Source of the DNA: Halobacterium jilantaiense
GTDB taxonomy: Archaea > Halobacteriota > Halobacteria > Halobacteriales > Halobacteriaceae
Direction of reading: 5' to 3'
DNA length: 64,000 nucleotides
Assembly: GCF_900110535.1 (NCBI RefSeq)
Contig: NZ_FOJA01000001.1
Span: 2,391,393 to 2,455,392, forward strand
Shown: positions 4,296-8,132 of the stretch, piece by piece
How positions within the stretch are numbered: the first letter of the stretch is position 1
Layout: the number at the start of each line of letters is the position of its first letter
Made by a program: the position numbers and the translations under genes
The notes under the pieces: generated by a model
Told to the model about the DNA's origin: nothing
The model's database searches: none
Seen by the model: the letters and a program-made list of their open reading frames with translations, nothing else

Positions 4296-4871
4296 TCAGT
4301 CGGTGAACGGGCTGTCCTCGGGGTCGACCTCGCTGGGCTCCTCGACACCGCCGCGCTCGACGCTGCCGTCGTCGGTCTCGACGTAGACGTCGTCCTCGTA
4401 GCCCCCGGCCGCGTTCTCGAACGCCGCGTCGTCCAGCTTCTCGGGCGTCGCCGGCGCGTCCGGGATGCCGTCGACCGGCCGGAACTCCCCCAGCGGGTCG
4501 TCGACGCTGACGCCGTGCCCGTCGAAGAACCCGGCGTAGCGGTCGTAGTGGTCGCCGAGTTCGTCGCCCGGGAACTCCATCATCTCCGCCCAGCCGTGGT
4601 TGTAGAAGTCGAAGTTCGCTACGATGTGGGTCATCTCGCGGGCCTCCGCCTCGGGATAGCCGGCCTGCAGCGCGGCGAGGTACATGTCCATCGTCGCGTC
4701 GAAGAAGCCGTCGAGGTGGTCGCGGCGCTCCTCGCGGCGCGCCTCGGGCGCTTTGTCGAGGAAGATACCGGTGTGGAGGTCGACGAGCTTGTCGTTGACC
4801 ACGTCGCGCAACCCCGGGACTTCGAGGGCCTTCTTCGACGCGAAGTGGCGGACGTTCTGGCGGAGCTTCAT
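4296..4871 (-). CDS. DUF6149 family protein
   Basis: 191 residues from the ATG giving MKLRQNVRHFASKKALEVPG. An upstream in-frame start at 4898 would add nine basic/hydrophobic residues, but the MKLRQN start matches what I remember of this haloarchaeal family. It is soluble and rich in acidic and aromatic residues, with a central HIVANFDFYNHGW segment and a conserved-looking C-terminal stretch (PEKLDD, YEDDVYVET). No enzymatic motif is visible. It is convergent with the MBL gene. Function unknown; the family name is from memory. Confidence 0.75.
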   Translation of the reverse strand: MKLRQNVRHFASKKALEVPGLRDVVNDKLVDLHTGIFLDKAPEARREERRDHLDGFFDATMDMYLAALQAGYPEAEAREMTHIVANFDFYNHGWAEMMEFPGDELGDHYDRYAGFFDGHGVSVDDPLGEFRPVDGIPDAPATPEKLDDAAFENAAGGYEDDVYVETDDGSVERGGVEEPSEVDPEDSPFTD

Positions 4872-4967
4872 ACCCGCCGCTAGGGGGCGTGTCCTCAAGA
4901 ACGTCCCGACACCGACACCGACACTCGCCGCCGGCCGATGGCCGCCGGAGCCGCGCGTACGCAGTCG

Positions 4968-5162
4968 TTACCTGACGTACCCGAGGTCGGGCTCCTCGTC
5001 GCCGCCCCCGGTGAACGGCACGCGCGTCACTTCCTTGAGGTAGGTGACACACACGAACCCCGGCCGCCCGGCGGGCCGGACGACCGGGTCGGCGTCTTCG
5101 GGGCACGGGAGGCTGTCGCCGGGGCGGACGAGTTCGGAGACGAGGCGGTAATCCTGTGGCAT
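4968..5162 (-). CDS. small conserved haloarchaeal protein
   Basis: 64 residues, soluble, containing two Cys (SLPCPED and GFVCVTYL) that are not arranged as a recognisable zinc site. The ATG at 5160-5162 is the only sensible start. Coding quality looks genuine (third-position G/C bias, acidic composition), but no family is recognised and the neighbours give no functional hint. Confidence 0.5.
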   Translation of the reverse strand: MPQDYRLVSELVRPGDSLPCPEDADPVVRPAGRPGFVCVTYLKEVTRVPFTGGGDEEPDLGYVR

Positions 5163-5305: not shown

Positions 5306-5800
5306 CTACTGGAAGCCGATCTCGTGTCGCCGGTCGTCCTCGTCTTTCGGGACGCTGATGCGGCAGACGCCGTTGTCGTGTTCGGCCGTCGCCTGTTCGG
5401 GGTCGACGTGGCCCGGAAGCGCGATTGCGCGCTCCAGTCGGAGCGGTCGCTCCTGAAGGAGCGCGTGCCCCCCCTCGATCGAAGCGGGAGCGGCGTCGTC
5501 GCTCCGGTCGGCGGTCACGTAGACGTTGTTCGCGTCCGCGTGGACGGTGATCTGGTCTTCCTCGAAGCCGGGCGCGTCGAGCAACACCACCAGTTCGTCG
5601 TCGGACTCGACGACGTCGGCGCTCGGTGTCGCCGCCGGCGGCTGGTACTCCGCCGGCTCCGCCTGCTGCTGGCTCGCGACCGCGCCGGAACCGGCGGTCT
5701 GTGGCGACGGGGTCGTCGCTCCGACCGGCGTCCGTCCGGTCGCGTCCCAGGCGGCCGCCGTGTACGGAACGCCCTGCGTGGTCCGGTGGCGGTCAGTCAT
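5306..5800 (-). CDS. Hsp20/alpha-crystallin family small heat shock protein
   Basis: 164 residues. About 58 N-terminal residues are Ser/Thr/Pro/Gln-rich low complexity. The alpha-crystallin domain follows (about 60-160), starting ADVVESDDELVVLLDAPGF, with the family signature GHALLQERPLRLERAIALP at about 109-127 and the strand NGVCRISVPK. ATP-independent holdase activity is expected. The C-terminus ends EIGFQ and lacks a clear I-x-I oligomer-locking motif. It starts within the stop of the upstream Q-rich gene (ATGA overlap), so both come from one mRNA. GvpH-like proteins share the fold, but no gas-vesicle genes are nearby. Confidence 0.93.
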   Translation of the reverse strand: MTDRHRTTQGVPYTAAAWDATGRTPVGATTPSPQTAGSGAVASQQQAEPAEYQPPAATPSADVVESDDELVVLLDAPGFEEDQITVHADANNVYVTADRSDDAAPASIEGGHALLQERPLRLERAIALPGHVDPEQATAEHDNGVCRISVPKDEDDRRHEIGFQ

Positions 5801-6540
5801 CGCATCGACTGCTGAGCGCCCGGCGGCTGCATCCCCGTCGACTGCTGGCTGCCAACCGGCTGCTGGTGCTGTTGCTGACCGCCCACTGGCTGGCGCTGTT
5901 GCTGCCCGTCGGAGTGTCGCTGGCGGCCCTGTTCGGCTCCGAGAGCGACGCCCAGCTGCGGGACGACCTGTGCGAGCTGCTGGCTGCTGAGGCCGAGCCG
6001 CCGCCCCAGCGTCTCCGCGAGGAGCTTCGTGTCGGCCGACTCGACGTACTGCCGCGTCTGGCGGTTCTCTTCGACCGGCTGGCCGCTCATCTGGGACTGT
6101 GGCTGCTGAATCCCCATCTGGGACTGCGGCTGCTGGAACTGCGACTGCGGCTGTGGGATGCTCTGTGACTGCGGCTGCTGGAGCTGAGACTGTGGCTGCT
6201 GCTGGCTGTTCTGTGGCTGCTGGCCGCCCTGAGTGTGGGGCTGCTGTCGAATCTGGGACTGCGGTCGCTGCTGGCCACCGATTTCGGACTGCGGCTGCTG
6301 AATGCTCCGAGCGCCTGGCTGCTGCTGGCCGACCATCTGGGACTGTGGCTGCTGAAGCTGGGGCTCTGGCTGCTGGGTCTGTCGGGGGCCCTGTGGCTGT
6401 GCGACCTCGCGCTGTGGTGGCTGTCGTGTGCCCTGGCGCTGCTGGCTGGGCTGCTGGACCTGGGACTGCTGGCCGATCTGGTCGGGCTGCTGTTCGACTG
6501 TCGATAGCTGTGGCTGCTGGAAGCTTGGCTGGCGCTGCAT
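5797..6540 (-). CDS. glutamine/proline-rich low-complexity protein with PQSQ repeats
   Basis: 247 residues, of which I count 87 Gln (about 35%), with Pro next. Residues 61-154 hold seven PQSQ units plus PQSE and PQNS variants, usually introduced by QQ. It has only three Asp and about nine Glu but many Arg, which is very unlike the acidic proteins around it. Residues about 165-204 (VESADTKLLAETLGRRLGLS, then QQLAQVVPQLGVALGAE) look like a short amphipathic helical module. The tail returns to Q/G/P repeats. No signal peptide or membrane segment is present. It is the first gene of an operon with an Hsp20 chaperone. It looks like an intrinsically disordered or prion-like protein; client, scaffold or condensate-former is inference only. 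Confidence 0.75.
   Translation of the reverse strand: MQRQPSFQQPQLSTVEQQPDQIGQQSQVQQPSQQRQGTRQPPQREVAQPQGPRQTQQPEPQLQQPQSQMVGQQQPGARSIQQPQSEIGGQQRPQSQIRQQPHTQGGQQPQNSQQQPQSQLQQPQSQSIPQPQSQFQQPQSQMGIQQPQSQMSGQPVEENRQTRQYVESADTKLLAETLGRRLGLSSQQLAQVVPQLGVALGAEQGRQRHSDGQQQRQPVGGQQQHQQPVGSQQSTGMQPPGAQQSMR
6079..6360 (-). repeat. degenerate tandem repeat encoding PQSQ units
   Basis: Within the Q-rich gene, a short degenerate repeat (plus-strand look: CTGnGACTGnGGCTGCTG) recurs, encoding QQPQSQ-type units at residues 61-154. Unit spacing varies from about 8 to 18 residues, so it is a diverged repeat rather than a perfect satellite. Such DNA can expand or contract by slippage. Confidence 0.8.
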
Positions 6541-6550
6541 TGTGGAATCA

Positions 6551-6566
6551 GTCCCCGCGAGGGGAC
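6551..6566 (-). promoter_or_regulatory. 5'-UTR hairpin before the Q-rich/hsp20 operon
   Basis: GTCCCC-GCGA-GGGGAC on the plus strand folds as a perfect 6-bp stem with a 4-nt loop. In the mRNA the loop is UCGC and the stem ends 10 nt before the AUG. The operon's TATA-like element is at about 6590-6600, so transcription should start near 6565-6572, placing the hairpin at the 5' end of a short leader. There is no Shine-Dalgarno sequence between hairpin and AUG. A stability or temperature-responsive role is inference. Confidence 0.55.
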
Positions 6567-6587
6567 ACTCGGACCGACGACCCGACG

Positions 6588-6600
6588 GGTGATAAAGCGG
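6588..6600 (-). promoter_or_regulatory. TATA-like element of the Q-rich/hsp20 operon
   Basis: Read on the minus strand, CCGCTTTATCACC lies 50-60 bases before the ATG of the Q-rich gene. This is the best TATA-like match in the region and implies a leader of about 25-30 nt, in contrast to the leaderless genes around it. Confidence 0.5.
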
Positions 6601-6878
6601 CCAGATGGTTCACGAGAATTCAGCCGTCTCACGCCTCGTAAGGTGGTATTACTGGCGTGCGGAGGGCCAGTAGCTGGAACGCGCCGCCGACCGGTCGAGC
6701 GCGTCTGGGTGAGCCTACGGTGACGAAGTGTCGGCGTACTCGGCGACCGCCCGGGTGAGTCAGCGCCGTCGGGTAACTTCCGCACACATCGGCAACTGTT
6801 TGCAAGGCGCGAAGCCCCCGAATTCGGGCCGCCGAGGAGATAGCAATCCACTTTAACCCAGAAGGCGTGGCCTCGGGT

Positions 6879-8132
6879 ATGAGCGAGTCGTACGTGATAA
6901 TCGGTGACGGTATCGCGGGTAGTTCCGCTGCCGAAGCCCTCCACGAAGAGGCCCCCGAGGCCGACATCACAGTCGTAACTGACGAGGGCGAGACGCTGTA
7001 CAACCGCATCCTCATCAAGGAGTTCGCGAAGGGGAAGCTCCCGGAAGCCCCTATCAGTATCCACGACCCGGACTGGTACGACGAGCGCGACATCGACCTC
7101 CGGCTGAACACCCTGGTCACGGAAGTCAACCCCGACGCCCACACCATCGAGACCCACGAGGGCGACGAAATCGGCTACGACAAGCTGCTCGTCGCGGCGG
7201 GCGGGACGCCGAACCAGCTCCCCGTGGAGAACTCCGACGCGGAGGGCGTCCACCACTTCTGGACGTTCGAGGACGCGCGCCGCATCCGCGAGCACGCCGA
7301 GGACGCCGACACCGGCGTCGTCGTGGGCGCGGGCCTGCTGGGCATCGACCTGGCGGCCATCTGCGGCGGGCAGGACGTGGACGCGAAGTACCTGATGCGC
7401 GGGAACCGCTGGTGGCGGTACGCGCTCAGCGAGGAGGGCGCGGAAATCATCCACGATGGGCTCCGCGAGAAGGGCGTCGAGCCGGTCTTCGAGTCCGGCG
7501 CGGACCACTTCGAGACGAACGACGACGGCGAGGTCGTCGCGACCGTCGACGGGAACGGCGAGCGCCACGAGTCGGACTTCGTCGGCGTCGCCATCGGCCT
7601 GGACTTCAACGTCGAGATTCTCCAGGACACGGACGCCACCATCGAGAACGGCGTCCACGTGGACGAGTTCATGCGCACCGACGTCGAGGACATCTATGCG
7701 GCCGGTGACATCACGCAGTACTGGGACACCATCCTCGACCAGCGCGCGCAGAACGGTTCCTGGGGCTCCGCGAAGCAGCAGGGCGCGCTCGCGGGGAAGA
7801 CGATGCTCGCGGACAGCGGCCACGACGTCGACATCGAGCCGTTCCGCTGGGTGTCCTCGTACTCCATCACGCACTTCGACTTCCCGTTCCTCTCCTTCGG
7901 CTTCCCGACGCTGGGCGACGAGACCTGCGAGCGGAAGTACAGCGACACGGAGTGGCGGCAGCTCGCGTTCAAGGACGGCCAGCTCGTCGGCGGCGTCCTC
8001 ATCGGGAACCTCGCGCCGCAGTCGAAGTACAAGCAGCTCATCAAGGACGAGGCGGTCGTCGCGGACCAGCAGGACGTCCTGCTGCAGGAGAACTTCGACA
8101 TCGAGGAGCTCGCGACCGCGACCCAGCAGTAG
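6879..8132 (+). CDS. NAD(P)/FAD-dependent oxidoreductase (rubredoxin/nitrite-reductase type)
   Basis: 417 residues from ATG 6879 (MSESYVIIGDGIAGSSAAE). An in-frame GTG at 6867 is less likely because the TATA-like CTTTAACCC sits 27 bases before the ATG. The protein has an N-terminal FAD-binding GDGIAG motif, a second dinucleotide-binding VVVGAGLLGIDLA around residues 145-157, and the DIYAAGDI motif around 270 that closes the FAD site. This is the pyridine nucleotide-disulfide oxidoreductase class II layout, as in NirB N-termini and rubredoxin or ferredoxin reductases. No redox-active CxxC is seen. The electron partner is unknown. Confidence 0.88.
   Translation: MSESYVIIGDGIAGSSAAEALHEEAPEADITVVTDEGETLYNRILIKEFAKGKLPEAPISIHDPDWYDERDIDLRLNTLVTEVNPDAHTIETHEGDEIGYDKLLVAAGGTPNQLPVENSDAEGVHHFWTFEDARRIREHAEDADTGVVVGAGLLGIDLAAICGGQDVDAKYLMRGNRWWRYALSEEGAEIIHDGLREKGVEPVFESGADHFETNDDGEVVATVDGNGERHESDFVGVAIGLDFNVEILQDTDATIENGVHVDEFMRTDVEDIYAAGDITQYWDTILDQRAQNGSWGSAKQQGALAGKTMLADSGHDVDIEPFRWVSSYSITHFDFPFLSFGFPTLGDETCERKYSDTEWRQLAFKDGQLVGGVLIGNLAPQSKYKQLIKDEAVVADQQDVLLQENFDIEELATATQQ

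Follow-up and report, generated by a model that had tools for sequence, protein, structure and literature searches.

The window, by which we mean the whole 64,000-nucleotide stretch of the Halobacterium jilantaiense genome that was analyzed, carries a three-gene cassette on the minus strand. A gene for a glutamine-rich (Q-rich) protein comes first, followed by hsp20 and by a short gene that we call s61. The features are as follows:

4296-4898, minus strand: DUF6149 protein, cassette flank
4968-5162, minus strand: s61, the gene that follows hsp20; 64 aa, beta-rich, no known family (profile, AlphaFold2)
5306-5800, minus strand: Hsp20/alpha-crystallin protein, 164 aa, GVC-type subfamily (Pfam HSP20, score gap, motif, tree)
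5797-5800, minus strand: ATGA overlap of the Q-rich stop and the hsp20 start, presumed to couple their translation
5797-6540, minus strand: Q-rich, low-acid, predicted-disordered protein, 247 aa, cassette gene 1
5920-6060, minus strand: codons 161-207, C-terminal helical hairpin module (AlphaFold2 helices; pN/pS below 1)
6551-6566, minus strand: inverted repeat GTCCCCTCGCGGGGAC, after the TATA box and before the start codon (pairing in eight leaders)
6591-6622, minus strand: promoter block GAATTC...TTTATC, BRE/TATA-like, conserved in Halobacterium orthologs
6867-8132, plus strand: pyridine nucleotide-disulphide oxidoreductase, cassette flank

The glutamine-rich gene and its product

Haloarchaeal proteins are strongly acidic and work in molar KCl. 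The product of the first gene has 87 glutamines among its 247 residues (35%), with P 28, S 23, G 22, R 16, E 9, D 3 and K 1, seven PQSQ and a predicted pI of 11.2; Lys and Arg are scarce in the Q-tract. The original prediction, made from the letters alone, had the coordinates, strand, length, Gln content and PQSQ count of this ORF right on re-check. It had also given the protein almost no Asp or Glu; the protein is indeed low in acid, but with 12 acidic residues (4.9%) "almost no" goes too far. That the composition is exceptional is borne out by a background sample comprising the window and 20 segments of 20 kb taken at even spacing from this genome (464 kb in all), in which this is the only one of 1557 six-frame ORFs of at least 100 aa with more than 10% Gln. 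Gln is encoded by 85 CAG and two CAA codons, GC3 is 0.82 (vs. 0.88 in the adjoining hsp20), and the gene contains short imperfect 15/21-bp repeats. No known domain was found in Pfam (best match PKS_DE, E=0.052, below cut-off) or in NCBIfam.

Codon comparisons indicate that the frame is coding and that its C-terminal module is under purifying selection, because a 42-residue module gives pN/pS of 0.36-0.77 in 15 of 15 ortholog pairs and because orthologs in different genera retain the reading frame and the same hsp20 overlap. The ATGA overlap itself, correctly predicted for the window, is identical in all eight Halobacteriaceae loci read. The frame is kept, and linked to Hsp20 in 25 of 25 subfamily loci (see below), rather than being the untranslated or unconserved one that the original prediction had allowed for as its failure.

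AlphaFold2 models of four Q-rich orthologs show disorder except for two helices, at residues 161-182 and 186-207 (pLDDT ~74), and pLDDT in the window protein is mostly below 50 outside this hairpin. The Halobacterium protein is predicted from these models to be disordered apart from the C-terminal helical hairpin. A conserved helical module had been proposed at residues ~165-204; the module stands, with its limits best placed at 161-207. The hairpin is not universal: it is absent in two genomes (G001 and G010), and six others have a different helical domain instead, for which no credible Pfam or NCBIfam match was found. In the two genomes lacking the hairpin, the partner (L004, L007) is Gln/Gly/His-rich with ~1% Pro and has lost the module, with operon position and overlap kept. 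A motif resembling M-x-x-Q-x-x-x-Q-Q-P-x-L-S recurs at the N terminus of six orthologs, and no purifying signal was seen in its codons, a very short stretch. Orthologs differ fast in length, and composition outside the module evolves fast, with Q-richness retained.

Where the Q-rich protein is encoded separately from Hsp20 (split loci), it has 20%-52% Gln, 1.6%-9% acidic residues, 0%-4% Asn and, in 18 of 20 cases, 4%-15% Pro (~1% in G001 and G010). These partners have a Q/N-rich, charge-poor, low-complexity tract and lack, judged from composition alone, the Asn enrichment and scarcity of proline that would be compatible with amyloid. Of the original suggestion that the composition is prion-like or condensate-like, the charge-poor, low-complexity part survives, but classic amyloid or prion behavior is not supported by a protein that is Pro-rich and Asn-poor (~11% and ~1%, respectively, in the window protein; Gly and His replace Pro in two orthologs). 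Archaeal prion-like domains have reportedly been studied as amyloids by Zajkowski et al.; those are likewise archaeal low-complexity proteins, with a Q/N bias, whereas the cassette proteins are Pro-rich and Asn-poor, and we know of no link between those domains and an Hsp20 operon.

Linkage to a subfamily of Hsp20

Loci were gathered by Hsp20 similarity, with Gln content never a criterion, and the correlation between Q-rich proteins and Hsp20 is therefore not built in. Profiles made from an alignment of ten Hsp20 orthologs, and then from a wider set of 16, were searched in 394 Halobacteriales genomes. The wider profile scored 25 genomes at 121-140 bits and the next best at 105, a gap that is partly by construction because the profile was made from subfamily members. 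The 25 genomes, drawn from five families, have the GVC-type Hsp20 described below, and in all 25 it is linked to a Q-rich sequence; the unit is absent from the other 369. No Q-rich neighbor was found at unlinked Hsp20s in a sample of 28 haloarchaeal Hsp20 domains.

A search of other haloarchaea for Q-rich ORFs directly upstream of Hsp20 genes had been suggested at the outset, and a separate ORF of this kind is present in 21 of the 25 subfamily genomes. In the 20 complete split loci (L006 was left out, its Q-rich ORF being cut by a short contig) the hsp20 start lies -19 to +17 nt from the Q-rich stop. In the remaining four genomes (L093/L144, L095, L097, and L099/L150), one ORF of 213-406 aa holds both, with the Q-rich region joined to the Hsp20 N terminus as a natural fusion. 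By these comparisons the Q-rich protein and Hsp20, as originally proposed, make up one conserved gene unit, adjoining or fused across five families and with its own Hsp20 lineage. The idea that the two proteins have matching low-complexity ends is strengthened by the fusions, which place a Q-rich tract on the Hsp20 N terminus. No description of the pair was found in the open-licence literature. A phage or defence origin of the cassette was considered and rejected, given that PADLOC returned nothing and PHROGs matched only Hsp20 itself.

The Hsp20 of the window has an alpha-crystallin domain at residues 62-157 (Pfam PF00011, E=2e-12), and its PDB matches are small heat shock proteins (sHsps), namely Hsp16, Hsp20 and Hsp14 of archaea and others. 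It scores below the NCBIfam cut-offs for the Hsp14 and Hsp20 equivalogs. Its N-terminal region is Q/P/A-rich, and its C terminus, EIGFQ, is IXI-like, with F: where the motif is I-x-I/V, the window protein ends I-G-F-Q and its relatives I-G/A-F/I/V. The A-x-x-x-n-G-V-L signature is not matched (GVC in the window), and the domain still scores as Hsp20. At this position the 25 subfamily loci have GVC (22), GMC (one) or GVV (two); the 26 control Hsp20 domains with the motif displayed have GVL (25) or GVI (one). The protein thus shares with archaeal Hsp20/Hsp14 sHsps (PF00011) the alpha-crystallin domain and an IXI-like end, I-x-F/V/I, but differs from them in having GVC/GMC/GVV for GVL, a long Q/P-rich N terminus and a dedicated Q-rich partner. 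On these sequence characters it is a distinct, diagnosable sHsp subfamily.

Among 50 alpha-crystallin domains placed in a tree, those of the split form make one branch (86/85) with the fused forms adjoining, and the labels split, fused and unlinked need only two changes. A single origin of the Q-linked Hsp20s is consistent with this tree, and is not proven by it because the joined group has modest support (89/52) and includes one unlinked protein (L014). The nearest Hsp20 outside the subfamily, in another member of the Halobacteriaceae (L181, G017), has a long N-terminal extension that is rich in Arg/Pro/Ala/Glu rather than Gln and may be a further low-complexity arm.

Q-rich proteins with a central helical domain of ~100 aa are encoded upstream of a diphthine-synthase-like gene at L105-L110 and L156 (G099, G155, G106, G121, G136, and G126). 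No Hsp20 was found within the stretch read at these loci, which belong to another haloarchaeal family. This helical domain has homologs at the C terminus of Q-rich cassette proteins, in G359, G270, G234 and others. Gln-rich partners can therefore exist alone.

Third gene, leader and flanks

The s61 profile has strong matches in 16 of the 394 genomes, and all 16 are among the 25 cassette genomes (hypergeometric 2e-22, with shared ancestry not corrected for). A weak extra match in G164 is probably due to chance. The homologs follow hsp20 in the same orientation in families f1, f4, f5, f8 and f11, and one is convergent, beside a fused Hsp20; s61 is missing in the sub-lineage whose Q-rich protein has the different helical C-terminal domain, and in three of the four fusions. 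By this distribution s61 is co-inherited with the cassette. Pfam, NCBIfam, PADLOC and PHROGs gave no family match, and s61 is named here as a new protein family. Its AlphaFold2 model, of moderate quality, has three strands (pLDDT 82, pTM 0.60); we assign no fold because a Foldseek search of the PDB returned nothing below E=0.4. The cassette carrier G005 has a second, orphan copy of s61 (L216, G005:C9) next to a seemingly regulator-like ORF and distant from any Hsp20.

Upstream of the Q-rich gene, a TATA-like TTTAT core is common to eight Halobacteriaceae loci, and most of the Halobacterium loci have the full GAATTC...TTTATC block. The inverted repeat between this promoter and the start codon (GTCCC/GGGAC) keeps its five pairs in all eight Halobacteriaceae leaders (40 of 40 cells), including one compensatory and three G-U pairs. 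The repeat could form a 5' hairpin or serve as an operator/regulator site, and it stays a candidate because the shuffle control was not significant (61/500); for the same reason we rejected a 5' hairpin as a proven RNA element.

In five of 13 Halobacterium genomes, the cassette is absent and the oxidoreductase and DUF6149 genes adjoin, ~150 nt apart, with all three cassette genes missing. This arrangement argues for gain or loss of the cassette as a whole unit. The same flanks surround the same three genes in a genome of another family (G286, locus L138), which points to an old unit. The simplest reading of the gene orders is that this unit occupied the oxidoreductase/DUF6149 site, was lost several times, and was relocated or transferred elsewhere. 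The third gene, the leader elements at 6551-6622, the GVC Hsp20 subfamily, the clean absence in sister species and the Q-rich relatives without Hsp20 all go beyond the original prediction.

Stress response and possible function

In Halobacterium NRC-1, sHsp-2 (18.53 kDa), Hsp-5 (14.3 kDa) and sHsp-1 (14.15 kDa) were all more than twofold up at 49 C on 2-D gels, these identifications being called putative by their source (PMC1475562). The Hsp20s of H. salinarum have predicted masses of 18.54 kDa for the cassette ortholog and 14.31 and 14.16 kDa for two others. From the match of 18.53 to 18.54 kDa, we infer that sHsp-2 is the cassette Hsp20. Acidic gels of this kind would miss the Q-rich protein, whose pI is ~11. 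The hsp1/VNG1802 operon of NRC-1, which joins an sHsp gene to one for which no homologs were known (PMC2121645), was considered as a possible cassette locus. It resembles the cassette in this respect, but by predicted mass hsp1 is another Hsp20 (14.15 vs. 18.54 kDa), and this candidate was rejected.

Two yeast proteins offer comparisons. Hsp42 has a disordered prion-like domain that is essential for sequestering misfolded proteins (PMC6813348). Its layout, a low-complexity, disordered, uncharged arm plus an alpha-crystallin domain, is shared by the four fused haloarchaeal proteins. In most cassette-bearing haloarchaea, however, the arm is a separate, co-translated protein that is Q/P-rich and not a yeast-type prion-like domain, and the unit adds a third protein, s61; the likeness is one of layout, and homology of the arms is not expected. 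At the gene level, the haloarchaeal form of this layout has the arm separate in 21 loci and fused in four. Btn2 is a sequestrase with a disordered/prion-like region (PMC11064659). It is likewise a separate protein, but it is not encoded with an sHsp and is not based on Gln repeats. By analogy, the cassette looks like an archaeal counterpart of Hsp42-type sequestration machinery.

Our preferred interpretation, held tentatively and at slightly less than even confidence, is a stress-regulated, three-gene chaperone cassette in which Hsp20 becomes a sequestrase through the Q-rich protein, its detached low-complexity arm. We favor it because the fusions make the Q-rich chain an arm of the chaperone and because yeast Hsp42 is the nearest studied case. 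The Q-rich protein would be the arm of Hsp20 released as a protein of its own, and would join Hsp20 oligomers by way of its C-terminal hairpin and/or Gln-rich contacts to the Q/P-rich Hsp20 N terminus. It would turn a simple holdase into a sequestrase, with unfolding proteins gathered into reversible assemblies, and an uncharged Gln/Pro/Ser/Gly chain would suit a molar-KCl cytoplasm, which screens charge attraction and salts out polar chains. A physical complex, condensation, sequestration or client capture, a role for s61 and a redox role for the motif cysteine are all things that we infer. A version that commits to more of these, a salt-adapted chaperone machine of two or three components in which a separate Q-rich scaffold, the GVC Hsp20 (with its conserved motif cysteine) and s61 form reversible stress assemblies, would be an archaeal sequestrase not described before and is possible rather than probable. 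Against a sequestrase stand the Q-rich homologs without Hsp20, a hairpin that is not universal, the Pro-rich and Asn-poor composition, and the 369 of 394 haloarchaea that do without the unit.

The alternative that survives best, which we consider rather unlikely, has the Q-rich protein as a dedicated client, or as the material of a polymeric structure (granule coat, filament, gel), that Hsp20 keeps soluble until assembly. A client and a chaperone that share an operon and are translationally coupled would fit this, as would the related Q-rich proteins without an adjacent Hsp20, and fast compositional change outside the module with Q-richness retained is what structural low-complexity material might show. 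However, the four natural fusions make the Q-rich part the chaperone's own arm, and the neighbors read show no consistent link to a secretion, membrane or structural gene.

Hydrophilins are defined by a Gly content of more than 6% and a mean hydrophilicity of more than 1. The window protein, a hydrophilic, uncharged, Gly-containing chain with 8.9% Gly and a mean hydrophilicity of 1.50, falls within this definition, and might be a hydrophilin/LEA-like protectant for low water activity that acts in parallel to Hsp20 with no physical complex. Several orthologs have too little Gly, though (G006 2.2%, G153 2.8%, G234 2.6%), and both the fusions and the strict pairing with one Hsp20 lineage suggest more than co-expression; we regard this explanation as distinctly unlikely. 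We give just as little credence to the Q-rich protein as a regulator of Hsp20, one that either blocks or releases its oligomerization, or else serves as its anchor, with s61 in the part of adaptor and without any condensate. A fixed order of small separate genes, an overlap giving tight stoichiometry, and a hairpin module that is under purifying selection in most Halobacteriaceae would all suit regulation. Against it, a long Q-rich tract is present in every member, even those without the module, which suggests a role for the tract in its own right. A spurious frame, arising by neutral repeat expansion or as an artefact of GC-rich DNA, is very improbable and was rejected: short imperfect repeats and fast length change between orthologs might suggest it, but the ORF is the sole one of its kind in 464 kb, its linkage is 25/25, frame, overlap and promoter are kept across genera, and module pN/pS is below 1.

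If the version with reversible stress assemblies is correct, low-complexity-driven sequestration would be an archaeal feature too, evolved by splitting or fusing an arm. The cassette also bears on how low-complexity assemblies could form with charges screened in molar KCl. An operon of a nearly uncharged Gln-rich protein and one Hsp20 lineage, with both fusions and clean losses, offers a tractable model in H. salinarum, one that could test Hsp42-like, chaperone-guided sequestration in archaea and the nature of a salt-proof disordered scaffold.
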